A DNA stretch of 64,000 nt. It comes from Epibacterium ulvae. GTDB taxonomy: Bacteria; Pseudomonadota; Alphaproteobacteria; Rhodobacterales; Rhodobacteraceae. The position numbers and the translations under genes were made by a program. Every line of letters begins with the position of its first letter. The first letter of the stretch is position 1. Of this stretch, positions 18,868 through 34,944 are shown piece after piece. The notes beneath the pieces were generated by a model, which worked only from the letters and a program-made list of their open reading frames with translations, had not been told where the DNA came from and searched no databases. The DNA is taken from NCBI RefSeq assembly GCF_900102795.1, contig NZ_FMWG01000001.1, positions 62,001 through 126,000 on the forward strand, written 5' to 3'.

Positions 18868-21651
18868 TTAAGCGATCACTCGGGTCCCTAGTGATTTCAG
18901 GAGTTTCGATGGATAATTGGGGCGAACCTGTTCCATGATGCACGCTACTGAAGGTAACTCAAGTCCCGGTTTTGGACGGTTTTCAAATAACTCCGGGAAC
19001 AGGGATAAAATCTCACATCGCTGTTGCTTCGAAAAACCTGCCAATGCCTGTGTGCCCGGATAGAGGGTTTCTGTGGCGACGCCATCTGCAAAAATAATTT
19101 CATGTTGTTGCGTAAGCAAATGAATATAGATCACTTCGCGTTTGCCATGTGCAATGCGTGCTTGCCCCCCCAATACATGCGGCAGGTCTTTGGCTCGTAT
19201 CAGGAAATCATCACTGATGGAGTTGATGAGAAACCGGTGCTGGGGAGACACCTGCATGGGCTGATCGTTTCCCAAAGCTCCAGTCGCAATATGAATTGGG
19301 CGAAAATTCATATTGTTGGTAAGTATTTGATTATCTAGATGCCGGCTCCCAATCCAGAGTATTTCCTGAAATCCGTTGTCAGAGGTCTGAACGTAGTCCC
19401 CGAGCTTTATCTGTTCAACAGGTATAGCACCCCGGTGCGTCTTGATTAGAGTGCCGGGTGTAAAACAGGGAACAACGTTTTCGATATTTGCGAAATTCAG
19501 TACGCCTTCTAAGACATCATCTGAATCATAATATTCAACGACCCCAGAAGTTGGATCTCCCGCATCATATGTGACGGAAATACTGCCACCTGGACTTGTA
19601 GATCCAGTAAGATCGAGCACGTCAAAGCCATCACCGCCATCAATGCTATCCCCGAGGTTGGCGTAGATCGTATCATCGTCGTCTCCGGCAAAGACGGTAT
19701 CATTGCCATCACCGGTGTAGATTTGATCATCCCCTGCCTCACCGAATATCAGGTCGTGGCCTTCGTCACCCGAAATCAGATCTCCGCCGCCACCGCCATA
19801 TATGGTATCATCGCCTGCACCGCCGTCGATAGTGTCATCCCCTGTTGAAATCAGGAAAAAATCTTCAATGGCCGTTTGAGGCCCGCCGCTGTTGAAATCA
19901 AAATGGAAAGTCTGCACATTTCCACTGGCATAGGTCACTTCAAATTCACTGCTACTCGACGTTGCAGATGTATTTTCGATTTTTACAGGAGCTTCTGGCA
20001 ACGCGACGGAATCACGGCCGTATTGAAACTCAGCGATATTCAGCACACCACCGTCATCGGTATCGCCGACCGAAATGCGGTTTGTGTCGGTGGTTGCGGG
20101 CGCGTATAATGTGATATGTGTTTCCGCGCCGCCATCGGTATCCCAAGTATACTGGCGCCAAGAGGTGTGGGCTATTTCATGTTCACCATCATAGATGGCT
20201 TTACCCACCTCACCATGGCGATCACCGTAGATAAGGTCAGCATCTATACCGCCATCAACTTGGTCTCCCCCATCGCCGCCAAGGATCGTGTCGCTTCCAC
20301 TGCCGCCCAAAATGGTATCATTACCGGTTCCAGCGAAGACTGAGTCATTGCCGGTTCCTGCGTCAATGCTGTCGTTGCCTCTTCCAGCGGTCTCGACCGT
20401 ATCATCACCAGCGCCAAGATTGATGCTATCGTCACCAGCTGAAGTGTCGATAATATAGTCGTTGCCATCACCTGTATTGATTGTGTCTGTGCCACCACCA
20501 GTTTTGATGGTATCATGTCCACCACCTGATGAGACGTCATTGGCACCATGGCGTGCGTTTATTGAATCATTGCCGGCCCCTGATACGATGGTGTCATGTC
20601 CATTTCCTGCGATGACTGAGTTATTGCCATCGCCGACGTTCAGGTTGATACTTTGACCTGCTGTGAATTTAGCACCTAGGTCCCATGTTCCAGAAACAAA
20701 GTCACCTTGATCCGAAAGCTCTATTTTTTCGATTTCGCTGAATTGAGCCGTATTCGCACCATCAGAGATAGTGCCGCCTTCGGAGGCATCATTATAAGAA
20801 ATCGAAACACCGCTGGTGAGGCCAGTTAAATCCAGAAGGTCGTTGTCATCTCCGCCTTCGCCGCCAATGATGGTATCGTCGCCAAAATTGTCATGCAGAA
20901 CGATTGTATCACTATCATCGCCCCCTGAGAGATTTTGATTCCCTATGCCACCGACGAGGGAGTCATTTCCCGTCCCGCCGTCAATTGTGTCATCCCCTTC
21001 GCCCCCATAAATCGTATCGTCGCCGCCAGCACCATCAATGATATCATCTCCATCGGTGATCTGGTCACCTTGAGTATCATTGTAGGTATAATCGATAAGG
21101 TCTCCATTGTTGGTGCCATCTACGACTCCATCTGATGTATGAAATTCCGTTTCAACCCGATCGACAGCTATGTTTCCCCTAGAGAAAGTATTCACTGAGT
21201 TTAGCGTCAAAGCCTGAATTGGCTTTGCTTCCATTGCGTCGCTATCAACGGAATCTCCACCAAAGGTTCCTTCGGGGGCTAGAAAAAGGTTTCCGTCAGT
21301 GTCTTGGATTAATGTGGCTGTAATATCGGCCGTTGTTCCATCTGTATAAGTAAGTGTAGCGTTATATAGCGCTCCGGCATCAAAGGTTGTGGTTTGAAGA
21401 CCGGCACCTTGTCCCAAATCAAATTGGATTTGGTCATTGTGAGAGTCGTTGTTACTCTCAAGTTCACCGAAGCCCGACGAATGATCAAGCGCGCTAACTG
21501 ATAAAACACTATCTAAAAGTGGATTATCATTTGTTCCATATGTCTGCCCCACGAGTGCGCCAGCATTTTCGGAAATACTGTCGCCTTCAACGACATCCAA
21601 GAGCTTACTCGGGTCATTTCCTAAAAAAATGGCTTTCCAAGTGTTAGACAT
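18868..21651 (-). CDS. RTX-type calcium-binding protein with C-terminal Hint domain
   Basis: A large acidic protein of 927 aa. The N-terminus (about 1-190) is a beta-rich domain of unknown role. Two blocks of glycine/aspartate nonapeptide repeats (about 190-480 and 605-690; for example GGEGDDTIDGGTGNDSL) form calcium-binding beta-rolls, separated by a non-repeat domain. The C-terminal Hint_2-type domain starts at Cys729 (VPCFTPGTLIKTHRG) and includes SPQHRFLI, the region carrying the conserved autoprocessing His. Such proteins are common in Rhodobacteraceae and are expected to be secreted by a type I system, but no secretion genes lie in this window. The ORF is intact although flanked by broken IS copies. 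Confidence 0.88.
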   Translation of the reverse strand: MSNTWKAIFLGNDPSKLLDVVEGDSISENAGALVGQTYGTNDNPLLDSVLSVSALDHSSGFGELESNNDSHNDQIQFDLGQGAGLQTTTFDAGALYNATLTYTDGTTADITATLIQDTDGNLFLAPEGTFGGDSVDSDAMEAKPIQALTLNSVNTFSRGNIAVDRVETEFHTSDGVVDGTNNGDLIDYTYNDTQGDQITDGDDIIDGAGGDDTIYGGEGDDTIDGGTGNDSLVGGIGNQNLSGGDDSDTIVLHDNFGDDTIIGGEGGDDNDLLDLTGLTSGVSISYNDASEGGTISDGANTAQFSEIEKIELSDQGDFVSGTWDLGAKFTAGQSINLNVGDGNNSVIAGNGHDTIVSGAGNDSINARHGANDVSSGGGHDTIKTGGGTDTINTGDGNDYIIDTSAGDDSINLGAGDDTVETAGRGNDSIDAGTGNDSVFAGTGNDTILGGSGSDTILGGDGGDQVDGGIDADLIYGDRHGEVGKAIYDGEHEIAHTSWRQYTWDTDGGAETHITLYAPATTDTNRISVGDTDDGGVLNIAEFQYGRDSVALPEAPVKIENTSATSSSSEFEVTYASGNVQTFHFDFNSGGPQTAIEDFFLISTGDDTIDGGAGDDTIYGGGGGDLISGDEGHDLIFGEAGDDQIYTGDGNDTVFAGDDDDTIYANLGDSIDGGDGFDVLDLTGSTSPGGSISVTYDAGDPTSGVVEYYDSDDVLEGVLNFANIENVVPCFTPGTLIKTHRGAIPVEQIKLGDYVQTSDNGFQEILWIGSRHLDNQILTNNMNFRPIHIATGALGNDQPMQVSPQHRFLINSISDDFLIRAKDLPHVLGGQARIAHGKREVIYIHLLTQQHEIIFADGVATETLYPGTQALAGFSKQQRCEILSLFPELFENRPKPGLELPSVACIMEQVRPNYPSKLLKSLGTRVIA

Positions 21652-23240: not shown

Positions 23241-23323
23241 TGCATTTTCAATGCATTGCCGGGCAGTGGACAAACCGGATTCTCGAAAACCCTTGTAAAG
23301 TATGGCGTTCAGGGAGGTGTGAC

Positions 23324-23475
23324 TTGCAGAAAATAGTGCTGCGTTTGGTGTTTTCGGAGTCAGTTTTGTACTGTCGAGAGAAAAGCTTTTTGAGTACCAA
23401 TCTCTTATGCCATTTAAGGCTTTGGGAGGTCATATCATAATTAAATTTGGAAATGGTGCTGCTGGAGAGAATTGA
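23324..23475 (+). pseudogene. C-terminal remnant of an older serine recombinase
   Basis: With one frameshift at the T-run near 23392, this reads LQKIVLRLVFSESVLYCREK then EYQSLMPFKALGGHIII and ends NGAAGEN, stop. It parallels the last 49 residues of the intact recombinase at 33356-34891 (LRLAFTSPFAYHR, ISLPFKALDMV, DGAAGEN). It runs into the left 46-bp repeat exactly as the intact gene runs into the right one. I infer it is the tail of a related integrase left by an earlier element in the same tRNA site. Confidence 0.75.
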
Positions 23476-23498
23476 ACTCTCGACCTCTCCCTTACCAA
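23453..23498 (-). repeat. Left attachment repeat (displaced 3' half of tRNA-Thr)
   Basis: A 46-bp stretch identical to 34869-34914, the 3' half of the tRNA-Thr gene from the anticodon-stem region to the CCA end. It lacks the 5' half, so it is not a functional tRNA. It marks the left boundary of the island. Confidence 0.92.
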
Positions 23499-23699
23499 TG
23501 TGTTTGCGGTGTCCTTGGATGAGTTTGGAGAAAGCCGGACAGATCAGTTCGGCACCGCATAACCTTCTGCCTTCAAATGCATATTTTCGGAAAGTGAATT
23601 GCAGATAGCCACATTTAGCCTTCCAGTCTTTCACTACTCTGCCCTACTAACGCCCTACACACTTCAAAGTCACACGTGGGGCCGGAACGTTCAGAACGG

Positions 23700-24743
23700 T
23701 TAAGCAAGGGCCGCGCGGACAGTTGCTTCAACGAGTTCTGATGACGCTTTGAACCATTCCGTCGCACGAAAAGCCCGGCCATCCGGCCCAGTCACCTTTA
23801 AAACGACATGATTGGGCCGCAAGGCACGGTGGATAAGTTGCTCAGCCTCCTTTGCGGAGTGACCAATCAATTCGTAGGTTTCAACCAGTTCGACGGCTGC
23901 GAACAAGAAGGTTGATTGTGTCTCAGCCCTAGCGATCCGATCTTCCACCGTCCCAGAAGTGGTTCCGACTTTGAGCAACCCGTGTACCTCAGGTTTTTCA
24001 GAAAGGGAGCGTAGGACATACACGAACCCTGTACTTGCGCCTTGGAACAAAGGGCCTGCATCGGTTGTGCCAATACGGCGAGCGTCTTTGTCTTCGTAAA
24101 GACGGCGCACCAACGATGACATCAACAAGTTGGACTCCATTCCATTGTCGAATATGAGCCGTAGGCGAGCATCCGGCTTTCCATTGCGTCGATGCTCATC
24201 GCGAACATCGGCCACATGGACCAGTTGACCCTTCAAGGTAAAAAATTCCCCCAGATCGACCCGTTCTTGCCGAAACCGTTGGGGTTTGCGACTGCCATTC
24301 GCAACACTTTCTCGAACCTGCTCAAACAAGGGTTCAAAACGCTCGAAGTCCGGGCATGGTTGTCGGTCTGCTACAAAATCTGGGCGGGCGATGGGTTTGA
24401 GTTCGTCACGGACTTCAAATATTCCGACTGGGTCTGACAAAAGAGGGTCTTCTAACGGATCAAAGTCTGATTGCTCGCCAAATATCAGACTATTGGTGTC
24501 ATAAATTGCAAGCTCAGAGAGGCCTGCTTTCGACGCTCGCAAACCCGCCAACTCGTTGGCCAACATACGTTCGCGCACGCTTCGCCCTTGCTCGGAAATT
24601 GGCACCCTACCGGTCTCAGTTAAGAATGCGTCTATGCGCTCCAAGACTTCTAATGCTCTGTCTATGACAGGTGTTCTTGCCGCCTTTGGCTTTTCATCTG
24701 CGGTGATTAGCAGTTCGTCATTAAGGTAGTCGATCTCAGGCAT
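23700..24743 (-). CDS. GIY-YIG (T5orf172/MUG113-type) nuclease-like protein
   Basis: A 347-aa protein, last gene of the island operon. The N-terminal 200 residues are helical and unassigned. The C-terminal domain carries GIY-YIG signatures: GFVYVLRS at 239-246, LLKVGTT at 256-262, an Arg in EDRIARAE, and AEQLIHRALRP around 301-311 for the metal-site region. The start is the ATG at 24743 (MPEIDYLNDELLI), which overlaps the helicase stop by 8 bp; a longer upstream frame only reads through the helicase gene. Domain and position suggest it is the DNA-cleaving subunit of a modification-guided defence system. Activity is inferred, not shown. Confidence 0.8.
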   Translation of the reverse strand: MPEIDYLNDELLITADEKPKAARTPVIDRALEVLERIDAFLTETGRVPISEQGRSVRERMLANELAGLRASKAGLSELAIYDTNSLIFGEQSDFDPLEDPLLSDPVGIFEVRDELKPIARPDFVADRQPCPDFERFEPLFEQVRESVANGSRKPQRFRQERVDLGEFFTLKGQLVHVADVRDEHRRNGKPDARLRLIFDNGMESNLLMSSLVRRLYEDKDARRIGTTDAGPLFQGASTGFVYVLRSLSEKPEVHGLLKVGTTSGTVEDRIARAETQSTFLFAAVELVETYELIGHSAKEAEQLIHRALRPNHVVLKVTGPDGRAFRATEWFKASSELVEATVRAALA

Positions 24744-26898
24744 CGCTTGCACCCTGCATATCCGCGCCCGCCATTGCCGCGCGTTTCTCACGGGACAATT
24801 TCCGCAGGAAGGCAAGGGCTTCTGCCAAGCGCACTTCCCGCCCATTTGGAGCATTTAAGTTCGGTTCTCTGCTTTCTCGCGCAATGAACTCCTTTACACG
24901 GTCGTAAAGCCGTTCGGCCTCTTCCTGTGTCATGTTAACTTTCAGAGCGCGAACTTCGCCGTGCAGGCGCGCAAGCAGTTCTTCGGATAGCTCCTTTGAC
25001 AACAACTCATAAGCATCGTCGAAGTCGCGCCGACCGCCAAGTAGATCGACCTGCAACTCACGAACATTGATGAACCGCTTTGCCTGCTGAACAAACCGGT
25101 CTCCGGCATTTGGCCCATCTGAAGCCTGCGTGTCAGTCCCTTGTTCTGGCATTTCAAACAGGGCTTGCTCACCCTCGGACATCCCCGGTGTCTGAATAAT
25201 GCTGGGGTCCTTTGCGACCTCTCTGCCAAGTCCGGCGCGCACACCGAACAGTCCGACGGCATCCTCCACCTGTGCGTCAGAAAAACTTGGGTAGCGCTTC
25301 TTGATCACATCCGTAACAACTAAATCATACATGACATCTGTATGATGATCATCCGGGTTGATCATAACCGTAAGCGTTCTGGGGTCACTTTGAACGTCAG
25401 CAAACAAATCGTTGAAGTCTGTTTCGATTGCCTCCACCGCTTCTTGATTGATTTCCGGCATTCCAACGATTTCGATCTCGCCCGCATTGGTGACAGGCGC
25501 ATCATCGCCCTGTTCGCCCGGTGTCCCGTCGAATTGATCCGCGCCTTTATGGGTCCGAAACTTAAACACAGGGGCCATCACCTGCTCCATCAGAAGCGAT
25601 ACGGAAATTGCCTTGAGCATGTCATTTACAGCCCGCGTTATCGCTTCATCTTTGGCAAATGGGGCGGACACAAGGTTGGTGAATTGCGCTTCCTCTTTGC
25701 CCGGAGCATCCCGTGTTGCGCGGCCAATAATCTGCACCACTTCGGTCAGCGACCCGCGATATCCGACGGTCAGGACATGTTCGCACCAGACCCAATCAAA
25801 ACCTTCTTTTGCCATGCCGAGCGCAATTATAACGTCAACGTCTTCTCGACCTTGCACTGCACGCAGAGAACTAAGAACCTGATCCCGATCTGCACTATCA
25901 TCCACAAGGTTTGCTATGCGTAGAGTTTTGCCGCCTGCGGACAGATGGACAAAGCCAGTTGCAGGATCGAGTGTAGTAGTTGCGTTTTCGCCAAGCCGGT
26001 CTCCGATAGCATCCACAATGGCATCAACCGCGAACATCTTATTGACGCCACCAGCTTCCGTAGATCCGACATGCGGAATGTGAACAATCGTTTTCAGATT
26101 TGGGTCGAGCGCTTCGCCAATCGCGTCAAGGTATTTGCCTTGGTAGAATCGAAAATTGATGCGCAGAGTCTTGAGGTGCTCATAGCCGTTTAGCTGTTCA
26201 TAATAAGTATAAATGACTTTTTCAAAACGCGCCTCATCTTCGGGATGTAGTACCGCCGTGCCATCGCCACGGAAATAAGAGCCGGTCATCGCCAGAATGT
26301 GTGCAGCATCACTGCCGACCTCGCCCGCACGGTCGATCAGGCCACGCAGCAGATTGCCGAGGCGACTGTTTTCGTCAGATGAGGCATGGTGCAGTTCGTC
26401 AACACACACCAACGTCCGGTCGAACAGTGAAACGTCGTTCGTTTTGGCATATGCTGAGCGTAGTGTGGAATGGGTGCAAAGGGCTGTATTGCCCCCTTCA
26501 CCATTAAGGAATGAGATCAACTCATCCACTTTGCGGCCCGTCTCAGAGCCGATAGTGCAAAGATCGACATCAAGCTGCCAATCCGAATGGAAACCGTGCT
26601 GCGCAAGCGCGGTATCCCGAAAGGAAGCACCGATAGAGCGTTCGGGTACGGCGATCACAACGCGAGCAGTTGCGGAAGTTCGCAGCTTTTCCAGCCCAAC
26701 AAACATAGCAGCGCGTGACTTCCCGGATGCAGGCGGTGATTTCACAAGCAGATGCTGGGCGTCGCGCTTATCCCAAACCCGCGCTTGCATTGCGCGCATA
26801 CCGAGATCATTCGTCGATTTTGACGCCCCTGTCGCTTCATATTGCAATGTGGTCGAACCAAGACTGTTCTGCGCTGTTGTAGCGGTTTCGTCGTTCAT
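24736..26898 (-). CDS. SF2 DEAD/DEAH-type helicase of the island operon
   Basis: A 720-aa superfamily-2 ATPase. Motif I is SPPASGKSR (Lys60), motif II is DELH (167-170), motif III-like is AMTGSYFRGDG and motif VI is QIIGRATRDAPGK (389-401), which together form a complete two-lobe helicase core. The C-terminal 300 residues are acidic and helical and of unknown fold. The start overlaps the methyltransferase stop by 4 bp and the stop overlaps the nuclease start by 8 bp, so the proteins are probably made in fixed ratio and work as a complex. A translocase role between DNA recognition and cleavage is the natural inference. Confidence 0.87.
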   Translation of the reverse strand: MNDETATTAQNSLGSTTLQYEATGASKSTNDLGMRAMQARVWDKRDAQHLLVKSPPASGKSRAAMFVGLEKLRTSATARVVIAVPERSIGASFRDTALAQHGFHSDWQLDVDLCTIGSETGRKVDELISFLNGEGGNTALCTHSTLRSAYAKTNDVSLFDRTLVCVDELHHASSDENSRLGNLLRGLIDRAGEVGSDAAHILAMTGSYFRGDGTAVLHPEDEARFEKVIYTYYEQLNGYEHLKTLRINFRFYQGKYLDAIGEALDPNLKTIVHIPHVGSTEAGGVNKMFAVDAIVDAIGDRLGENATTTLDPATGFVHLSAGGKTLRIANLVDDSADRDQVLSSLRAVQGREDVDVIIALGMAKEGFDWVWCEHVLTVGYRGSLTEVVQIIGRATRDAPGKEEAQFTNLVSAPFAKDEAITRAVNDMLKAISVSLLMEQVMAPVFKFRTHKGADQFDGTPGEQGDDAPVTNAGEIEIVGMPEINQEAVEAIETDFNDLFADVQSDPRTLTVMINPDDHHTDVMYDLVVTDVIKKRYPSFSDAQVEDAVGLFGVRAGLGREVAKDPSIIQTPGMSEGEQALFEMPEQGTDTQASDGPNAGDRFVQQAKRFINVRELQVDLLGGRRDFDDAYELLSKELSEELLARLHGEVRALKVNMTQEEAERLYDRVKEFIARESREPNLNAPNGREVRLAEALAFLRKLSREKRAAMAGADMQGASDA

Positions 26899-29582
26899 GT
26901 CTTGGTTTCCTTCTTCTTTTTCTTTGTTTGCTTTTCAGCTTCCTCAGCAATCATGCGTTCGTAAAGCTGCAGCATATGCTCGATCCGATCCGAATCAGAA
27001 CGGTAACGACGTGACCCAAAGATCGTTTCCATCGTTTCGTCTAACTCTTCATGCGCACGGCGTAGTGCACGGGGCATTTCCTTTGGGGAGTACAGGTTTC
27101 CTAAAGTCTTGTTCCAACCCGCTTCTTTGCGCGCCAAATCGATTTCCCACCAATGTTCTTCCAATTCGCTTTTTCTGCGTTCCGAAAGTATCGGCAGTGG
27201 AAAAGTATTCCAAACCAAGGTATTGGAGTAACGAGGGTCTTCTTTGAGACGTCCTCCAACTGTTTCCAACCACAGCCGATGAAGACGCGACGACAAAACC
27301 GCCGCTTGCCAGACAGCGCCATCGAAAATACCAAAAGCAAGGTTCGACACTATATTATTCTCATCCTTAATATCGACTGGTAACCAAATACGGTCTTCAC
27401 TTGCAGCTCCTGGGATCAAAATTGTCCAACACTGCGCCGCACCTGGTCGCTGCAAAAAGCGATGGGGTCGATCCGCGAAAGACTTTGATATCTTGCTAGC
27501 TTTTTCATTGGAGCGTGTTGTTGCAACTGCATCGAAACGCATAGCCAATTCAGGTATCGCTCTCGCACTTTGGGCTTCTTCGTCTGCCACCCATAGGCAC
27601 CATCTTTCGATACCTTTCATAAGCTCTTGTGATCCATAAAGTCTCCGAACAAACCGCTCGGCCTGCGGGTTTTCATCAAGCAGCTTTATGCGTTCTTCTC
27701 GGTTAAGGATTAGATTTCCACCATCTGTTGGTTGGTTGCCTCGTGTCATTTGTTCGAGCAATGCAATCGGTGTACTTGTCTTTGCAACGACCACAGTTGT
27801 ATTGGGTGCCAAATAGGGGCCAATAACTTCAACATCACGCACAGTGTCTGAATCGAACAAGCGTTTAGGCGAACTGGATGGCAAACCCATGCTTACAATA
27901 ACGCATGTAACCCCCGCATTGTGAGCGGCGAGATTTGACCACTTGAAGGACCGATGAGCGAACTTTATTTCCAATTGATTCAAAAGATGGGGCCACAGTT
28001 CTGGCACTTGCACCCCTTGGACGATTGAGTTCGTCGAAACAAAAGCAAAAGGAGCGCCTGTCGCTATGCAATAATCACGGGCCTTTGCAAACCATAGCGT
28101 CACATAGTCGAGGTTGCCCCAATTCTTCACACGCCCTTTGAAAACCAGTTCCATGTCCGCTTTTTGCTCAGGCGTCCAATATGATGACCCTCGGAACTGT
28201 GGGTTGCCAACCAAAAAAGTCTCAGAGTTTTCACTTGTTGGGCAAACGTCAAGCCAATCCACCTCCGCCGAGTTGCCCTTCTTAATCACCCCAGCCTTCT
28301 GCAACGGCAGAAAATCGGTTCGCTGTCCAAGGTCCAATTCAAGCTGTTGGTCACATTGGTACTTGGCTATCCACAACCCGAGCCGCGCCGCTTGGCAGGC
28401 GAAATCGTCAATCTCAATGCCAAAGAACTGCTCCAGTTGAATGCCAGACAGGCGCACCTCTGCTAGGCGTCTCAGTGCTTCGACCTCAAGCGCTCTCATC
28501 TCTTTATAGGCTAGGATCAGAAAGTTACCCGACCCGCAGGCCGGATCAAAAACCCGGATGCGACCCAAACGCTCCAAGAACGCGCGCAGCTTGCCCTTGT
28601 TGGCCCCCGCGCGCTCCAATTCCGACTTGAGCGGATCTAGCAGAATTGGCTCCAGAACTTTCATAATGTTGGAGGGCGAGGTGTAGTGCATCCCCAGCTC
28701 GCCGCGCTTTTCCACGTCTACGACCGCCTGCAACATAGAGCCAAAAATATCGGGATTGATCAGCTTCCAATTAAGTTGAGCGCAATCGAGCAAAAGCTTA
28801 CGGCATTTGCTGTCGAGCGTGGGCATGGGCTCTTGCTCTTCAAATAGAGACCCATTCACATATTTCAGCTTTGACCAACCCGCCGTTTCCGACGGTCTGT
28901 CTTTGGGCGGGGTGTTCATATGTTGGAATGCACCAGACAGGAACTCTGCCAAATCAGACCCATCAACTTTGGTTGATTGCCGAACGGCCTTTTCGAACAC
29001 GTCTTTTTCAAAGATTCCAACATCGTCAGAGAACAAGCAAAATAGAATGCGCGCCATGAAAATGTTGAGTGCATGCCTGTCTTTCTCACTTGTCCATGAG
29101 GGGTTCATGTCACGGACGGCATCGTGGAAACGCGATATAAACCGCGTGGCGCGCACGTCGGCCAGTTTCTCCTTGGCTGGCACATAGCGTTCGTGCCCGC
29201 CCAGCGGGAAGAAGAGGTCACCCTCAAGCGACAACATATCCAAGCCAACGCGTAGGGGCTCATCAGCAATTCGCGTATCGAAAGCTGCAATGCTCTCGCC
29301 ATCGTAGGCTAGAAGAATACGCGGGCGACGGCTTTTCGGAGATGCCTCTGCCTCTTTCTGCATTTCTTCGAGCGCAGAATGCGTTCCGCCGACGGGCGTG
29401 GATTTGAAACGCAGCATGCGCGTCCAAACAAACTCACCATCTTTTGCTTTATCCCTCAGCTTGGTAATTGTCGCACGGGGCGCGCCAACCGCTTCCATCA
29501 GCTCTAGGCCGAAAGCTCCACCCTTCGGTGGGGATGCTGCCAAGTCATCCAGATTGCTGTAAATTTCTCCGGGAGTGAGCAT
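26895..29582 (-). CDS. MmeI-like class I DNA methyltransferase
   Basis: An 895-aa adenine-type DNA methyltransferase. An N-terminal region and a helical spacer (about 140-300) lead to GELGMHYTSPSNIMKVLEP. SAM motif I is FDPACGSGNF (345-354). Motif IV reads GNPQFRGSSYW (459-469), with Gln where the usual NPPY/F has Pro. Beyond residue about 600 is a target-recognition-type region, and the C-terminus is very basic (KKKKKETK). The architecture resembles the MTase-TRD part of MmeI/type IIL enzymes, but I do not see the PD-ExK nuclease motif expected at their N-terminus. It lies 3 bp downstream of an XRE regulator and is coupled to the helicase and GIY-YIG genes, which could supply the missing translocation and cleavage. 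Confidence 0.87.
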   Translation of the reverse strand: MLTPGEIYSNLDDLAASPPKGGAFGLELMEAVGAPRATITKLRDKAKDGEFVWTRMLRFKSTPVGGTHSALEEMQKEAEASPKSRRPRILLAYDGESIAAFDTRIADEPLRVGLDMLSLEGDLFFPLGGHERYVPAKEKLADVRATRFISRFHDAVRDMNPSWTSEKDRHALNIFMARILFCLFSDDVGIFEKDVFEKAVRQSTKVDGSDLAEFLSGAFQHMNTPPKDRPSETAGWSKLKYVNGSLFEEQEPMPTLDSKCRKLLLDCAQLNWKLINPDIFGSMLQAVVDVEKRGELGMHYTSPSNIMKVLEPILLDPLKSELERAGANKGKLRAFLERLGRIRVFDPACGSGNFLILAYKEMRALEVEALRRLAEVRLSGIQLEQFFGIEIDDFACQAARLGLWIAKYQCDQQLELDLGQRTDFLPLQKAGVIKKGNSAEVDWLDVCPTSENSETFLVGNPQFRGSSYWTPEQKADMELVFKGRVKNWGNLDYVTLWFAKARDYCIATGAPFAFVSTNSIVQGVQVPELWPHLLNQLEIKFAHRSFKWSNLAAHNAGVTCVIVSMGLPSSSPKRLFDSDTVRDVEVIGPYLAPNTTVVVAKTSTPIALLEQMTRGNQPTDGGNLILNREERIKLLDENPQAERFVRRLYGSQELMKGIERWCLWVADEEAQSARAIPELAMRFDAVATTRSNEKASKISKSFADRPHRFLQRPGAAQCWTILIPGAASEDRIWLPVDIKDENNIVSNLAFGIFDGAVWQAAVLSSRLHRLWLETVGGRLKEDPRYSNTLVWNTFPLPILSERRKSELEEHWWEIDLARKEAGWNKTLGNLYSPKEMPRALRRAHEELDETMETIFGSRRYRSDSDRIEHMLQLYERMIAEEAEKQTKKKKKETKT

Positions 29583-29585
29583 TGC

Positions 29586-29930
29586 CTAAAATGCTCCCAG
29601 AGCAAACGAATCTTGAGAGCCCTCAGCTCCCGTCACAACCAATTTCACTTCATTGCCTAAAGCGGAAAGGCACCGCGCAAGTCGCTCTGCCGAGTAGCCA
29701 CTAAACTTGCCATTCAACACCGCAGATAAATCTGGCTGCTTAAGCCCCATGATTTCAGCAGCTTTGGTTTGGGACAGTCCTCTGCTCTCCATACTTCGAG
29801 CTATGTGAGAAACTATCCAAGCTTTGAGTTGGGTGTCACTGTTTTCAGCGTTGTTATTCTGAGCCAAATTACCACTACCGATAGGAACCGCTTTTGTGTC
29901 CAGAATTATAGTCATATGACTATAATTCAC
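29586..29930 (-). CDS. XRE-family HTH regulator of the island operon
   Basis: A 114-aa protein with a helix-turn-helix of the HTH_37/HigA-like type: GLSQTKAAEIMGLKQPDLSAVLNGKFSGYSA in shortened form GLSQTKAAEIMGLKQPDL, then SAERLARCLSALGNEVKLVV. The start taken is a GTG at 29930 behind a close GGGAG; an ATG at 29915 is also in frame. A perfect 24-bp palindrome covers the start region. No HigB-type toxin gene is adjacent. As first gene of the methyltransferase-helicase-nuclease operon, it most likely acts like a controller protein that represses or times expression. Confidence 0.83.
   Translation of the reverse strand: MNYSHMTIILDTKAVPIGSGNLAQNNNAENSDTQLKAWIVSHIARSMESRGLSQTKAAEIMGLKQPDLSAVLNGKFSGYSAERLARCLSALGNEVKLVVTGAEGSQDSFALGAF
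29904..29927. promoter_or_regulatory. Perfect 24-bp palindrome over the start of the XRE gene
   Basis: Each 12-base arm reads AATTATAGTCAT on its own strand, with no mismatch and no spacer. It spans both possible start codons of the XRE gene, as expected of an autoregulatory operator. Binding by the XRE protein is inferred from position and symmetry. Confidence 0.7.
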
Positions 29931-30466
29931 AAGCTCCCTTTTGGAGGCAGTTGAATACCCAAGGCGGCCTAACGGTATACGGCATGGGAAGAGTACGGGA
30001 GAGCTGTTGCCTTTTGATCTCTATCCCTAGGCTATCGCGTTTAGTTCACTTTTTTTGCGCGCTAGGCTGGATTTGATACTCCATCTTGTTGCGAGTGTTG
30101 ATGCTGTGCCGCTCGAACTGATCTTACATAGATGCCATCGGGCAAAGGTGGAGTTTTTGTTGATCGCTTCGAGAGGAAGGGACTGCCGAACGTCCGCGCC
30201 GAACTGTACCGTAAGTGAAAAAAGCGCATCCTAGAACTGAAAGAGCCGCGCGATTGAACCACAGGTGACCCCACCCCATCGACGGCTCTCAGAGCAATGG
30301 CAGCGCTGGCCAATCCCGCTTCGACGGAATCCGAGAGCGTCCTTGATCATAGAAAAGACGAAATTCATGTGTTTAACCGGTGATCATCCGGTTGCGCCTT
30401 CGCGCGGGCACACGTGAGATTTCAAGGTTTTGTTCAACAGTTCATAGATTGAGTAGGAGTATTACT
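29931..30466. other. Gene-free stretch between divergent island genes
   Basis: A 536-bp region without a convincing gene. It must contain the promoter of the XRE-methyltransferase operon (leftward) and that of the 30467 gene (rightward). Short open frames around 30062-30313 have no family resemblance and no ribosome sites. I see no repeats or RNA structure that I can support. Confidence 0.4.
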
Positions 30467-31060
30467 ATGTCCGACGAAAGCACCGAACAGACCGAAGACA
30501 ATTACGGAGATTTTGCAGTCGGCACTTTGTTTGGGCGTACCTATCTGGAAAAACTGCTTCTATCGATTATCGAGGCCTACCCATTCGGTCACGAAACCCC
30601 AGAAACCCGTCTTGGCGTTGCCGTCCGCGCCTTAACTGGCGAAAGCTCAAAAGCGGAGGCAGTGAAGTAGGACGGCGATTTGCGCGCGCTTCGACACATG
30701 GCCAGAGAGCATCATCGCGATAAAGGGAACAGATTCCTACTTTATATGAAGCATCGCAAAGATAAGACCCCACCGGAGCTTCCAAAGGTCCGCTCTGATT
30801 TGGCCCTCGCCAAGGAGGCAACTGACAAGTTCTTTGATCCTTCCAACGAACAGGCTCGAAAATCAATATACGACCGTCTACGCGAGAAGTTCAGCGGTGT
30901 TTATTATCGAAAACAAGGCAAGGGGCACGGTGTCAATTTCCGCGAGTATTTTGTGTACATGGCGGTTGAGCATGATGATGTCGCGGAAACACTTGAGGCT
31001 CAGAGCCTTGATATTGTTTGCAAAGAGCTTCGCGAAAACGGTGTGAAAACCACGCGTTAA
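30467..31060 (+). pseudogene. Unknown island gene interrupted by one in-frame amber codon
   Basis: Starts at an ATG with TAGGAGT upstream (MSDESTEQTEDNYGDFAVGT). It is open to a TAG at 30668-30670 and then continues in the same frame without another stop (DGDLRALRHMAREHH) to the TAA at 31060. Without the TAG it would encode a single protein of about 197 aa. The second half contains a basic segment (SGVYYRKQGKGHGVNFRE) and ends KELRENGVKTTR. I recognise no family. The amber may be a recent disabling mutation, a sequencing error, a true gene boundary with a TTG restart at 30680, or readthrough. Confidence 0.55.
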
Positions 31061-31163: not shown

Positions 31164-31382
31164 ATGTCTGCTAAATCAGAATACCTTACCACAAAAGAAC
31201 TGCCGGAAATCACCGGTTTCAGCGCAAGTTTTTTCGAGAAGGGCCGCTTCTTGGGTTACGGACCTCGCTTCATGCGTTTTAAATCCAGTGGCCGCACCGG
31301 CAAAGTACTATATCGCCGCGTAGATGTCGAAAGATGGATGAATGACATGATTTGCGATCCGAAAGGAGGCGCAAATGTCTAA
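31164..31382 (+). CDS. AlpA/excisionase-like helix-turn-helix protein
   Basis: A 72-aa DNA-binding protein. The start at 31164 is fixed by a strong AAAGGAGG. YLTTKELPEITGFSASFFEK is a MerR/AlpA-type helix-turn-helix, followed by a wing-like GPRFMRFKSSGRTGKVLYRR and VDVERWMNDM. Proteins of this type act as excisionases or activators of integrase and morphogenesis genes in islands. It overlaps the primase fragment at 31375 by 8 bp. Role here inferred from fold and context. Confidence 0.75.
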   Translation: MSAKSEYLTTKELPEITGFSASFFEKGRFLGYGPRFMRFKSSGRTGKVLYRRVDVERWMNDMICDPKGGANV

Positions 31383-31863
31383 TGACGGAAGCACATCAAG
31401 TCTCGTAGTGGCGCTTGTTCAGCAAATAGCAGAGCTTGGAAATCCATCAGTACACGCAACTTACAAACCAAAAGGAAAAGCGAAATATCAGCCCCGAAAG
31501 GCTGCGATCACAAAAGAGGTTGCTTTCGAGCATCTGAACGGGGAGCAGCCAATTGGCTGCTACTTCGTTTTGGGTGAGCACACTCAAGTTGCTGTAATCG
31601 ACTTCGATGACCATGATAGCTCCATGACTTGGGACGATATGGCAGAAGCCGCAAAACCCCTCGTGGATAGTTTGAAGGGTATAGGTCTGAAACCTTTGTG
31701 TTGTCGTTCCGGTGGTGGCGCAGGTCTCCACATCTGGCTGGTTTGGCAATTGCCGCAATCGGCAAAGCTGATGAAAGAGTTTCTTCGCCATCATGTATCT
31801 ACTTGTGGTTTCAAGCACGGCACTAAGGGCGTTTTGGACCACGCGGTTGGCCAAAGCCGCTGA
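31375..31863 (+). pseudogene. Truncated archaeo-eukaryotic-type primase (TOTE-like) domain
   Basis: A 162-aa product matching the first two-thirds of an AEP primase domain. Catalytic acidic residues are in AVIDFDDHD (D76, D78), the second hallmark is RSGGGAGLHIWLVW (His119), and the upstream GEQPIGCYFVLGE matches the family start. The frame stops at GTKGVLDHAVGQSR, just where the family normally continues with a V-E-V/I-F-P-K-Q segment and the third catalytic region. It is therefore probably inactive. It may be the left part of a deleted primase or replication gene of the island. Confidence 0.65.
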
Positions 31864-32041
31864 GGCAAAAAACATCGCTTCCGACTTGGGGGAGGCAGAT
31901 GTCTTTTTCGCGGACATCGCACGCGCCAAGCTGGGTGATTGGGAGGCTTTGCAGACTGTCGGTGCGCGGGAATGGGCGCGTCTCAAACCGTTGAATGAAA
32001 ATCTTCTTCCCATGTTGCCGTATTATGCGGATTCAACTTGA
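31793..32041 (+). pseudogene. C-terminal fragment of an unidentified protein
   Basis: In a +1 frame relative to the primase fragment, this frame stays open and becomes protein-like from about 31840 (AKAAEAKNIASDLGEADVFF, then LKPLNENLLPMLPYYADST). There is no ribosome site for an independent start. It may be the tail of a gene fused to the primase by deletion, or the original tail after a frameshift. I recognise no family. Confidence 0.35.
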
Positions 32042-33008: not shown

Positions 33009-33356
33009 ATGGCCCCCGCACCAACAAATGTGCCACCAGAATTTAATCCCGAAACCGCGCCTCCGCGCCTGACTATCGACTGGGACGCGTATCTGCCATT
33101 CTTCGAAAGCGAAGATATTTCTGAAGAAGAAAAGCGCGAAATGATCGAAGCTCTGTGGACGATCATGGTCAGCTTTGTTGATCTGGGCTTTGGCATTCAC
33201 CCTGTCCAGCAGGCCATTTCAAAACAAAACGGGGGACAAGATGTTTCTCTTGCACAATTGCCTGCTGCTGATGTGGTAAACTCAGATCAGACCACCAATC
33301 AAAGTTCAAAACTAACGCGCATCTTTGACGCTGCGCAACGAGGAGGGAGTCTTTAA
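33009..33356 (+). CDS. Small partner protein of the serine recombinase, 115 aa
   Basis: The start at 33009 follows GAAAGGAG at proper spacing (MAPAPTNVPPEFNPET); a longer upstream frame lacks support. The middle is an acidic amphipathic segment (FFESEDISEEEKREMIEALW) and the tail is polar. The stop overlaps the recombinase start by one base (TAATG), so the two are translationally coupled. I recognise no named family. A role as recombination directionality factor or chaperone for the integrase is a guess from the coupling. Confidence 0.65.
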   Translation: MAPAPTNVPPEFNPETAPPRLTIDWDAYLPFFESEDISEEEKREMIEALWTIMVSFVDLGFGIHPVQQAISKQNGGQDVSLAQLPAADVVNSDQTTNQSSKLTRIFDAAQRGGSL

Positions 33357-34868
33357 TGCAGACAAAACAACACGCTATCATCTATTGCCGCGTCTCCTCG
33401 CGGGCGCAGGAGGCCGAGGGGCATGGCTTGCAGTCCCAAGAGACCCGTTGCCGTGAGTACGCGGCCAACAAGGGCTATGAGGTTACGGCGGTTTTTCCAG
33501 ACACGATCACAGGCGGCGGCGACTTTATGAAACGCCCAGGCATGATGGCGTTGCTGTCTTTCCTTGATGCACAACCAGATCAGCGCTTTGTGGTGATTTT
33601 TGATGACTTGAAGCGCTTTGCCCGTGACACACGGTTCCACCTCGATCTGCGCGAAGCTTTCCGCAAACGCGGGGCAAGCATCGAATGTCTGAACTTCAAA
33701 TTCGATGACACGCCTGAGGGTGAGTTCATTGAAACCATCATGGCCGCCCAAGGCGCGTTAGAGCGCAAACAGAACGGGCGGCAGGTGGCGCAAAAGATGA
33801 AAGCGCGCATGCAAAATGGCTATTGGGTGCATACTGCGCCTGTTGGCTATCGCTACAAGACCGTCAAAGGCCACGGCAAGCTACTGATCTTGGATGAACC
33901 AATGGCCAGTGTTGTGAAAGAGGCCTTTGAAGGTTTTGCGATGGGACGTTTTCGCAGCCGCTCTGAGGTAAGGCGCTTCTTTGAGTCCCACCCAGATTTC
34001 CCGCGCAGCAAACATGGTGAGATCCGCCAGCAGCGCGTGGACGATATTTTCAACCAGCCACTTTATTCGGGATATATTTGCAGCGAGACATACGAGCTGG
34101 AGTGGCTCAAAGGGCAGCATGAAGCCCTGATTTCATTGGAGACCTTCGACAAGGTACAACAGCGTATCAAAGGAACGGCCCTCGCGCCTGCACGCAAGAA
34201 TATCGGTGACGATTTCGCGCTGCGTGGGTTTGTGACCTGTGGGGAATGTGGCGTGCCGCTGCGCTCGTCTTGGTCAAAAGGCAAATACAAGCGTTACCCG
34301 TATTATCTCTGCCAGAACAAATCATGTTCCTGCTCCGGCAAGTCTATTCCGCGTGACAAGTTGGAAGGGGCATTTGGTGAGGTTGTGAAGAGTTTGCAGC
34401 CCAGCCCGTCCATGTTGGCTCTGGCTAAGGCTATGTTCCACAATGCGTGGAGTGCACGGGATGAGCAGATGAAGCAGGCCAGCACATCGGTGAAGCGTCA
34501 AATCACTGAGGTTGAGAAACAGATTGAATCACTCTTGGGGCGGATCATGTCGGCAACCAATGACACCGTGATTGGAGCCTATGAAGATAAGATCGCGAGT
34601 TTGGAAAAATCCAAGATCAGATTGCAGGACAAGCTCAATTACCAACGCCCACCACAAGGGAGGCTGGAAGAGGTGCTAGAACTCTCCCTAAAGTTCCTAT
34701 CAAGCCCTTGGAAACTCTGGGAAAGCGGCAATATCACATCGCGTAGATTGTTGTTGAGATTGGCGTTTACATCGCCTTTTGCCTACCACCGAAACGAGGG
34801 TGCTAGAACTCCCGAAATATCGTTGCCTTTCAAGGCTTTAGATATGGTTTTACAGGGTAATTTTAAAG

Positions 34869-34891
<23 letters not shown>
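33356..34891 (+). CDS. Large serine recombinase (integrase of the island)
   Basis: Site-specific recombinase of 511 aa. The resolvase-type catalytic domain begins IIYCRVSSRAQE, with nucleophile Ser14, and includes FDDLKRFARDTR. A recombinase domain follows (about 155-260), then a zinc-ribbon (CGECG and CQNKSC, about 297-325), a coiled-coil (about 365-430) and a C-terminal tail. It lies against tRNA-Thr, and its last seven codons (GAAGEN plus the preceding Gly) and stop lie inside the tRNA-derived repeat. It is therefore very likely the enzyme that inserted the island. The reading frame is complete. Confidence 0.92.

Positions 34892-34944
<53 letters not shown>

Follow-up and report, generated by a model that had tools for sequence, protein, structure and literature searches.

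Gene Content of the Locus

We analyzed a 64,000-nucleotide stretch of the Epibacterium ulvae genome (contig NZ_FMWG01000001.1, positions 62,001 to 126,000; hereafter the window, with coordinates counted from its first letter) and studied four open genes that follow one another on its minus strand. In order, the open reading frames (ORFs) encode a regulator of the XRE type (29930-29586), a DnmA/YeeA-like methyltransferase of the MmeI family with a target recognition domain (895 aa, 26895..29582), a YeeB-like superfamily 2 (SF2) helicase/translocase (720 aa, 24736..26898), and a YeeC-like GIY-YIG protein (347 aa, 23700..24743). The ORF coordinates confirmed what an earlier note, made from the sequence alone, had described as a one-strand series with a 3-bp gap between the XRE and methyltransferase genes, a 4-bp overlap between the methyltransferase and helicase genes, and an 8-bp overlap between the helicase and GIY-YIG genes. 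The last overlap places the GIY-YIG start at ATG 24743, overlapping the helicase stop by 8 bp, and is the same in many relatives; the ORF list gives the start as 24854.

Pfam matched the XRE protein to HTH_37 (3.5e-17), the methyltransferase to the N, hel, Mtase (4.6e-98), TRD (1.4e-71), and C models of MmeI, the helicase to DEAD (5.7e-07) and Helicase_C (4.6e-05), and the GIY-YIG protein to MUG113/T5orf172. In PADLOC, the methyltransferase matched the Type IIG model at 6.9e-250, and the XRE, helicase, and GIY-YIG proteins gave weak matches only. The domain content supports the earlier proposal that the methyltransferase, helicase, and GIY-YIG nuclease activities lie on separate proteins, and a probable role in defense or restriction-modification (RM), suggested at the same time, is likewise supported.

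Loss of the MmeI Nuclease and a Candidate Cutter

The methyltransferase aligned with the solved structure of MmeI (PDB 5hr4) over residues 125-890 at 3.4e-157, and its DPACGS and GNP motifs were invariant across 78 aligned sequences. The enzyme probably modifies adenine. We take D70, E80, and K82 to be the catalytic residues of MmeI. When 23 N-terminal regions of the methyltransferase family were combined into a profile, the alignment extended weakly (E 0.0047) into the nuclease part of MmeI, and within it none of the 23 had Asp in the D70 column or Lys in the K82 column; the loss of these two residues from every aligned member agrees with the earlier idea that the usual PD-ExK nuclease has been replaced. 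The AlphaFold model of the N terminus shows helices and strands with good confidence (pLDDT 85.4), but no fold match to it reached E ≤ 0.001, DrdV ranking first at 0.029. On sequence grounds, the N-terminal domain that is the cutter in MmeI is inactive in the methyltransferase of this operon. DnmA, too, is described as lacking the MmeI nuclease motif in the part of PMC7261158 that treats it.

The helicase retains its motifs: G59-K60-S61, D167-E168-x-H170, T205-G206-S207, and Q389-x-x-G392-R393-x-x-R396 were invariant in 23 of 23 sequences. A sequence comparison of the helicase with solved structures returned chance-level matches only. The GIY-YIG protein begins with a helical part, continues with a barrel of possibly SH3/KOW-like type, and ends in the GIY-YIG (T5orf172/MUG113) domain, in which Tyr242, Lys258, Gly260, Arg269, and Glu301 were invariant in all 42 sequences aligned. 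Since the nuclease residues of MmeI are lost and those of the GIY-YIG domain invariant, this separate protein suggests itself as the nuclease and is the likely cutter of the system. The sequence search found no solved relative of this protein, and no PDB entry reached E ≤ 0.001 in the fold search with its model, which gave only weak matches to the barrel (residues 149-227); the absence of a GIY-YIG chain from the fold listing is not evidence against a GIY-YIG fold. The C terminus of the helicase and the N terminus of the YeeC-like protein looked alike by eye, and a common repeat was rejected after BLASTP gave no alignment.

Correspondence to the dnmA-yeeB-yeeC Cluster and Comparison with Other Systems

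In domains, gene order, and agreement with published descriptions, the methyltransferase-helicase-GIY-YIG set has the make-up of the dnmA(yeeA)-yeeB-yeeC cluster. The passages on this cluster in PMC7261158 and PMC9973331 describe, for Bacillus subtilis, a helicase and a T5orf172/GIY-YIG protein encoded behind an MmeI homologue that lacks the nuclease motif; they report that the order is conserved in other bacteria, discuss the genes as a possible Type I-like RM set or a relic of one, and refer to Morgan 2009 and Makarova 2011 as earlier sources. A further mark of the cluster is adenine methylation at a non-palindromic site. The window has the same succession: a methyltransferase without the PD-ExK catalytic residues (in an alignment that is weak there, E 0.0047), the SF2 helicase gene next downstream, and then the T5orf172/GIY-YIG gene. 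Two differences stand out. The window adds the HTH_37 regulator and a putative operator before the set, and the B. subtilis set is inactive in restriction tests, with stretches of the C-terminal part absent from YeeB and YeeC (PMC9973331, in the passage concerned). The claim of an unrecognized combination was thus not borne out, and we rejected a new defense system because the cluster is already in the literature (PMC7261158, PMC9973331, as far as the passages cited go).

The earlier judgment that the gene content fits neither DISARM nor BREX nor a classic Type I system held among the proteins scanned with Pfam, PADLOC, and NCBIfam. Single-chain MmeI/Type IIL enzymes share the methyltransferase and target recognition domains and a related N-terminal domain; in the window set, by contrast, the nuclease residues are lost and the motor and nuclease are separate proteins. 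We therefore rejected Type IIL, in which one polypeptide also carries an active PD-ExK nuclease, on an alignment that is weak at the nuclease region. Type I RM systems (HsdR/HsdM/HsdS) likewise combine a methyltransferase, a motor, and a nuclease, and site recognition would here reside in the methylating part, but the window set has no separate HsdS and no HSDR_N domain on the helicase, and its nuclease domain is GIY-YIG. Type I was rejected on the lack of HsdS and of an HsdR-type nuclease domain among the eight locus proteins searched with Pfam. DISARM was rejected as PADLOC found no DrmA, DrmB, or DrmC among seven locus proteins; only the methyltransferase matched the DrmMI models, and the best helicase matches were PbeA and HamB. 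BREX was rejected on the lack of PglZ and BrxC in PADLOC (seven proteins) and NCBIfam (five proteins), the sole BREX-type signal being weak PglX matches of the methyltransferase in both.

The weak PglX and DrmMI matches would nevertheless fit an exclusion mechanism like that of BREX or Pgl, in which methylation marks self and unmethylated DNA is not cut; the helicase and GIY-YIG protein would instead stop replication or work on DNA in other forms. The passages on the cluster's T5orf172 protein in PMC7261158 and PMC9973331 report no tested activity for it, which leaves room for such a role, yet PglZ, BrxC, and DrmA/B/C are missing from the seven proteins scanned and the nuclease residues of the GIY-YIG domain are strictly kept. 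We regard exclusion without cutting as quite improbable.

Distribution of the Three-Gene Set

To characterize the gene neighborhood, we used 79 genome loci, the best of 126 stretches confirmed in a scan of genome contigs with the helicase; as the loci were found through the helicase, the counts give partners per helicase and not the reverse. Rare co-occurrence of the genes had been named beforehand as a reason to doubt the system, and the opposite was seen: the three genes are widely found together. The GIY-YIG gene was present in all 79 loci, immediately behind the helicase and on its strand in 77, and the methyltransferase in 77, every time upstream on the same strand and longer than 850 aa in 75. 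Two loci, L039 and L057, have no methyltransferase; in L057 the contig itself starts 1.1 kb ahead of the helicase. Left out of these counts are three viral loci and 30 others whose flanks of ~1.5 kb could not have reached an XRE gene. When all 112 loci are taken, 110 have the GIY-YIG gene, 102 have the methyltransferase, and 2 have an XRE gene (the window's own locus, L001, being too short for XRE).

The search with the helicase yielded at least 7999 candidates, every scored one passing E ≤ 0.001; 263 of 72,556 plasmid records matched, with query coverage of 80% or more in 153, and one of the plasmid matches (H16) carries the annotation YeeB. Within the order, 35 of 292 genomes had a match, with the own genome counted and some matches only partial, and three relatives were found on viral contigs. 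The three-gene set is common and not a new defense system.

Spacing between the methyltransferase and helicase genes was tight in most of the 77 loci, with the ORFs overlapping or lying within 50 bp in 61 and 51-300 bp apart in one. In the other 15 (L069, L073, L080, and L084 among them), more than 300 bp and up to 1.6 kb separate the two, which suggests an extra operon gene in these relatives. Two loci contain a distant methyltransferase-like ORF (L033:1131-3617 and L036:1140-3626; 828 aa, E about 1e-21) ~700 bp before dnmA, behind a 160-aa ORF. The host genome also has a broken helicase-like stretch (G000:C18:435643-436499) with 76% identity over 55 residues and 35% thereafter, perhaps a decayed second copy.

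The HTH_37 Regulator and Its Putative Operator

The domain match identifies the XRE protein as an HTH_37, antitoxin-type regulator. The second feature of HTH_37 antitoxins, an adjacent Gp49 toxin gene, is absent: the downstream neighbor is the methyltransferase, and the three upstream ORFs (30062-30313, 30380-30670, and 30680-31060) had no Pfam match, so that none of them places a Gp49 gene before the window's XRE gene. Near the start of its open frame, a palindrome search found the 26-bp perfect palindrome GAATTATAGTCATATGACTATAATTC (29903..29928), a putative operator and the longest of three perfect palindromes of at least 16 bp in the window; its core, ATAG-N8-CTAT at 29908-29923, occurs in the window once. 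The palindrome is overlapped by a sigma-70-type promoter-like site, TTGTGA-16-TATAAT (29905..29932, minus strand), matching the consensus at 10 of 12 positions and the best of nine consensus matches in 23300-30600, where shuffled sequences averaged 5.0 (standard deviation 2.3). As this site would start transcription past the codon at 29930, the XRE gene probably does not start there; the first in-frame ATG, GTG, or TTG behind it is TTG 29867, which is the more likely start and would give a gene of 29586..29867.

The regulator, one of the four genes in the earlier note, is not a fixed part of the system. Homologues of the XRE gene turned up in 2 of the 79 genome loci (L031 and L038), on a Roseibium plasmid (L113), and in the window, with a profile that was built from very few sequences and would miss unlike HTH genes, and with little or no sequence before the methyltransferase in several of the 79 loci (e.g., L047, L060, L057, and L099). 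The Roseibium plasmid has the four genes in the same order with a 3-bp gap; on an Agrobacterium plasmid (L114), no XRE gene precedes the operon. The three homologues are 51-58% identical to the window's protein, and the junction with the methyltransferase is a 3-bp gap in three of the four loci and a 7-bp overlap in one. In all four, the core motif stands before the conserved LK codons, at distances of 95, 97, 98, and 96 bp. Dinucleotide shuffles of 300-bp stretches from these loci contained any match in 14, 6, 14, and 5 of 3000 cases; the motif was first spotted by eye in the same four loci and the shuffles are therefore descriptive.

A second set of loci supported the motif, which also occurs before toxin-antitoxin genes. 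We fetched 30 loci for 42 places with HTH_37 relatives and left out our own; in 5 of the other 29, the exact motif lies 387-442 bp ahead of the HTH_37 match. In 300 shuffles the mean was 0.08 and the maximum 2, against the 5 observed, matches that had been noticed in a listing before they were tested. All six ORFs scanned between the motif and the HTH gene encode Gp49 proteins, five with the exact motif and one with a single mismatch. ATAG-N8-CTAT thus precedes Gp49/HTH_37 pairs as well. We infer that the XRE protein is an autorepressor that stems from a toxin-antitoxin module; it would have brought its operator without the toxin and now control the RM operon. The resemblance to Gp49-HTH_37 modules lies in the HTH_37 protein and the shared motif; the difference is that the window's regulator has no toxin gene and is followed by RM genes.

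Its presence in only 2 of the 79 loci, and the Gp49 toxins that adjoin its relatives elsewhere, could also make the XRE gene a bystander: a lone antitoxin that outlasted its toxin-antitoxin pair and stands before the operon by chance. The gene has nevertheless been kept beside the methyltransferase in four loci despite the divergence of its protein, and the upstream flanks of these loci look unrelated by eye, yet the motif stays at 95-98 bp; we find a chance neighbor unlikely. Also improbable is that the regulator still works as a labile antitoxin-type protein, whose degradation, or binding by a free Gp49-type toxin, would free the operator and switch restriction on under stress or phage infection. 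If true, this would link toxin-antitoxin networks to RM expression.

Small regulators of RM genes have been described before. The passage on RptR in PMC12255303 offers a parallel from Type I RM islands, a small repressor that is encoded at the RM operon and acts at its promoter, with its site over the -10 box; RptR differs in binding TAGCTA repeats and, in that account, has no close structural homologue and is not described as HTH_37. The C proteins of Type II RM systems are likewise small HTH regulators of the RM genes and of their own gene, but come from systems with a separate endonuclease (PMC3874152, in the part cited). In a search of open-licence papers, we did not find an HTH_37 or antitoxin-type controller of dnmA-yeeB-yeeC in print. 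The three-gene set is known, and its regulator and operator make the window's copy a variant that we did not find described.

Other genes stand before the methyltransferase in other lineages of this system. An ORF lies near the methyltransferase start in 50 of 77 loci, many surely not genes; among the five scanned with Pfam, a WYL protein (L048), HTH_17 (L086), and HSDR_N (L050) precede the methyltransferase with a 4-bp overlap each, and Mrr-type genes precede it by 130 bp in L034 and 48 bp in L053.

The tRNA-Thr Island

The operon had been placed on a tRNA island, which our analysis confirmed with sharper boundaries. ARAGORN identified a tRNA-Thr (GGT) at 34870-34944 on the minus strand, the insertion site, and a repeat comparison found a 46-bp direct repeat of its 3' end at 34869..34914, at the intact tRNA, and at 23453..23498, the distal end of the island (both on the plus strand). 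The tRNA-Thr and the copy of its 3' end bracket the operon, which is therefore cargo of an 11.4-kb element in tRNA-Thr. At the tRNA end, the element encodes a large serine recombinase of 511 aa (33356..34891, plus strand; Pfam Resolvase 2.7e-26, Zn_ribbon_recom 1.9e-12, and Recombinase 3.3e-07), its probable integrase.

Within the genus, the flank beyond the tRNA was present in 18 of 18 genomes searched (our own counted), and the tRNA-Thr was in place in six relatives, for which 11-12.5 kb of the other side was read; the distal repeat matched their tRNA-Thr region over 45-46 bp at 98-100% identity in all six. Of 14 proteins compared with these relatives at E ≤ 1e-3, none matched except the recombinase, by 48 residues adjoining the tRNA in one genome of the six.

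The island recombinase has 10 matches in the host genome, including itself; the next best is 65% identical, and several are fragments. The genome may therefore hold further serine-recombinase elements of this kind. The island also carries a fragment-like piece of a TOTE/LigD-type primase-polymerase (31375-31863, plus strand; AEP-TOTE 8.9e-12) followed by an overlapping frame (31793-32041, plus strand). Outside the island end lies a gene for a 927-aa RTX-repeat protein with a C-terminal Hint_2 domain (18868-21651, minus strand).

Discussion

With a probability of roughly 0.7, we interpret the operon as an RM set of the DnmA-YeeB-YeeC type, Type I-like but assembled from other parts, in which the GIY-YIG protein cuts, an HTH_37 repressor acts at ATAG-N8-CTAT, and the whole is cargo of a serine-recombinase island. 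The gene set and its order, the motifs and their conservation, the lost and kept catalytic residues, and the island ends are read directly from the DNA. For the methylation target, restriction, order of events, and repression, we infer the following course. The MmeI-family protein would recognize a short site and methylate an adenine there, as its family suggests. An unmethylated site on incoming phage or plasmid DNA would bring the SF2 motor and the GIY-YIG protein into action with the methyltransferase, the motor translocating and the GIY-YIG domain cutting. The HTH_37 repressor would bind ATAG-N8-CTAT over the promoter and keep the whole operon at a set level, and entry into a new cell without the repressor would lead to strong initial expression.

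Several observations weigh against this interpretation. The passages in PMC7261158 and PMC9973331 report that the B. subtilis cluster restricted neither a plasmid nor three phages and that its motif is not avoided by phages. The alignment across the nuclease region of MmeI is weak (E 0.0047), and within it 5 of the 23 sequences carry Glu in the E80 column, where the window has Lys, so that uniform loss is limited to D70 and K82. The case for the regulator is built on the motif in four loci of one subclade, with helicases 86-87% identical to the window's, and 24 of the 29 HTH_37 relatives have no exact motif in the 700 bp scanned (578 bp in one), so the motif is not family-wide. Ten near loci have neither the XRE gene nor the motif at that place (the one match in 600 bp lies 521 bp before the methyltransferase), and the system therefore does without the regulator there.

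The published negative restriction tests in B. subtilis (PMC7261158, PMC9973331, in the passages cited) also suit a different explanation, argued for DnmA of that species, by which an orphan methyltransferase with a dead restriction half is kept for gene regulation. Against it, none of the three reading frames is interrupted in the window, and the aligned relatives show no change in the GIY-YIG or helicase motifs. YeeB and YeeC of B. subtilis, moreover, are the proteins with missing C-terminal stretches, and in Vibrio crassostreae, according to another study as cited in PMC9973331, deletion of the dnmA or yeeB homologue increases sensitivity to some phage subclades. We consider an orphan methyltransferase improbable for the window and retain the reading of an RM set with a GIY-YIG cutter.

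The DnmA-YeeB-YeeC set is widespread, with negative restriction results in B. subtilis and a reported effect on phage sensitivity in Vibrio (PMC9973331, as reported in the part cited). The copy in E. ulvae is compact and island-borne, its genes are open and a predicted operator belongs to it, which makes it a good test object for the GIY-YIG protein as the cutter. An antitoxin reused together with its operator as an RM controller would show a simple way in which defense genes gain regulation.

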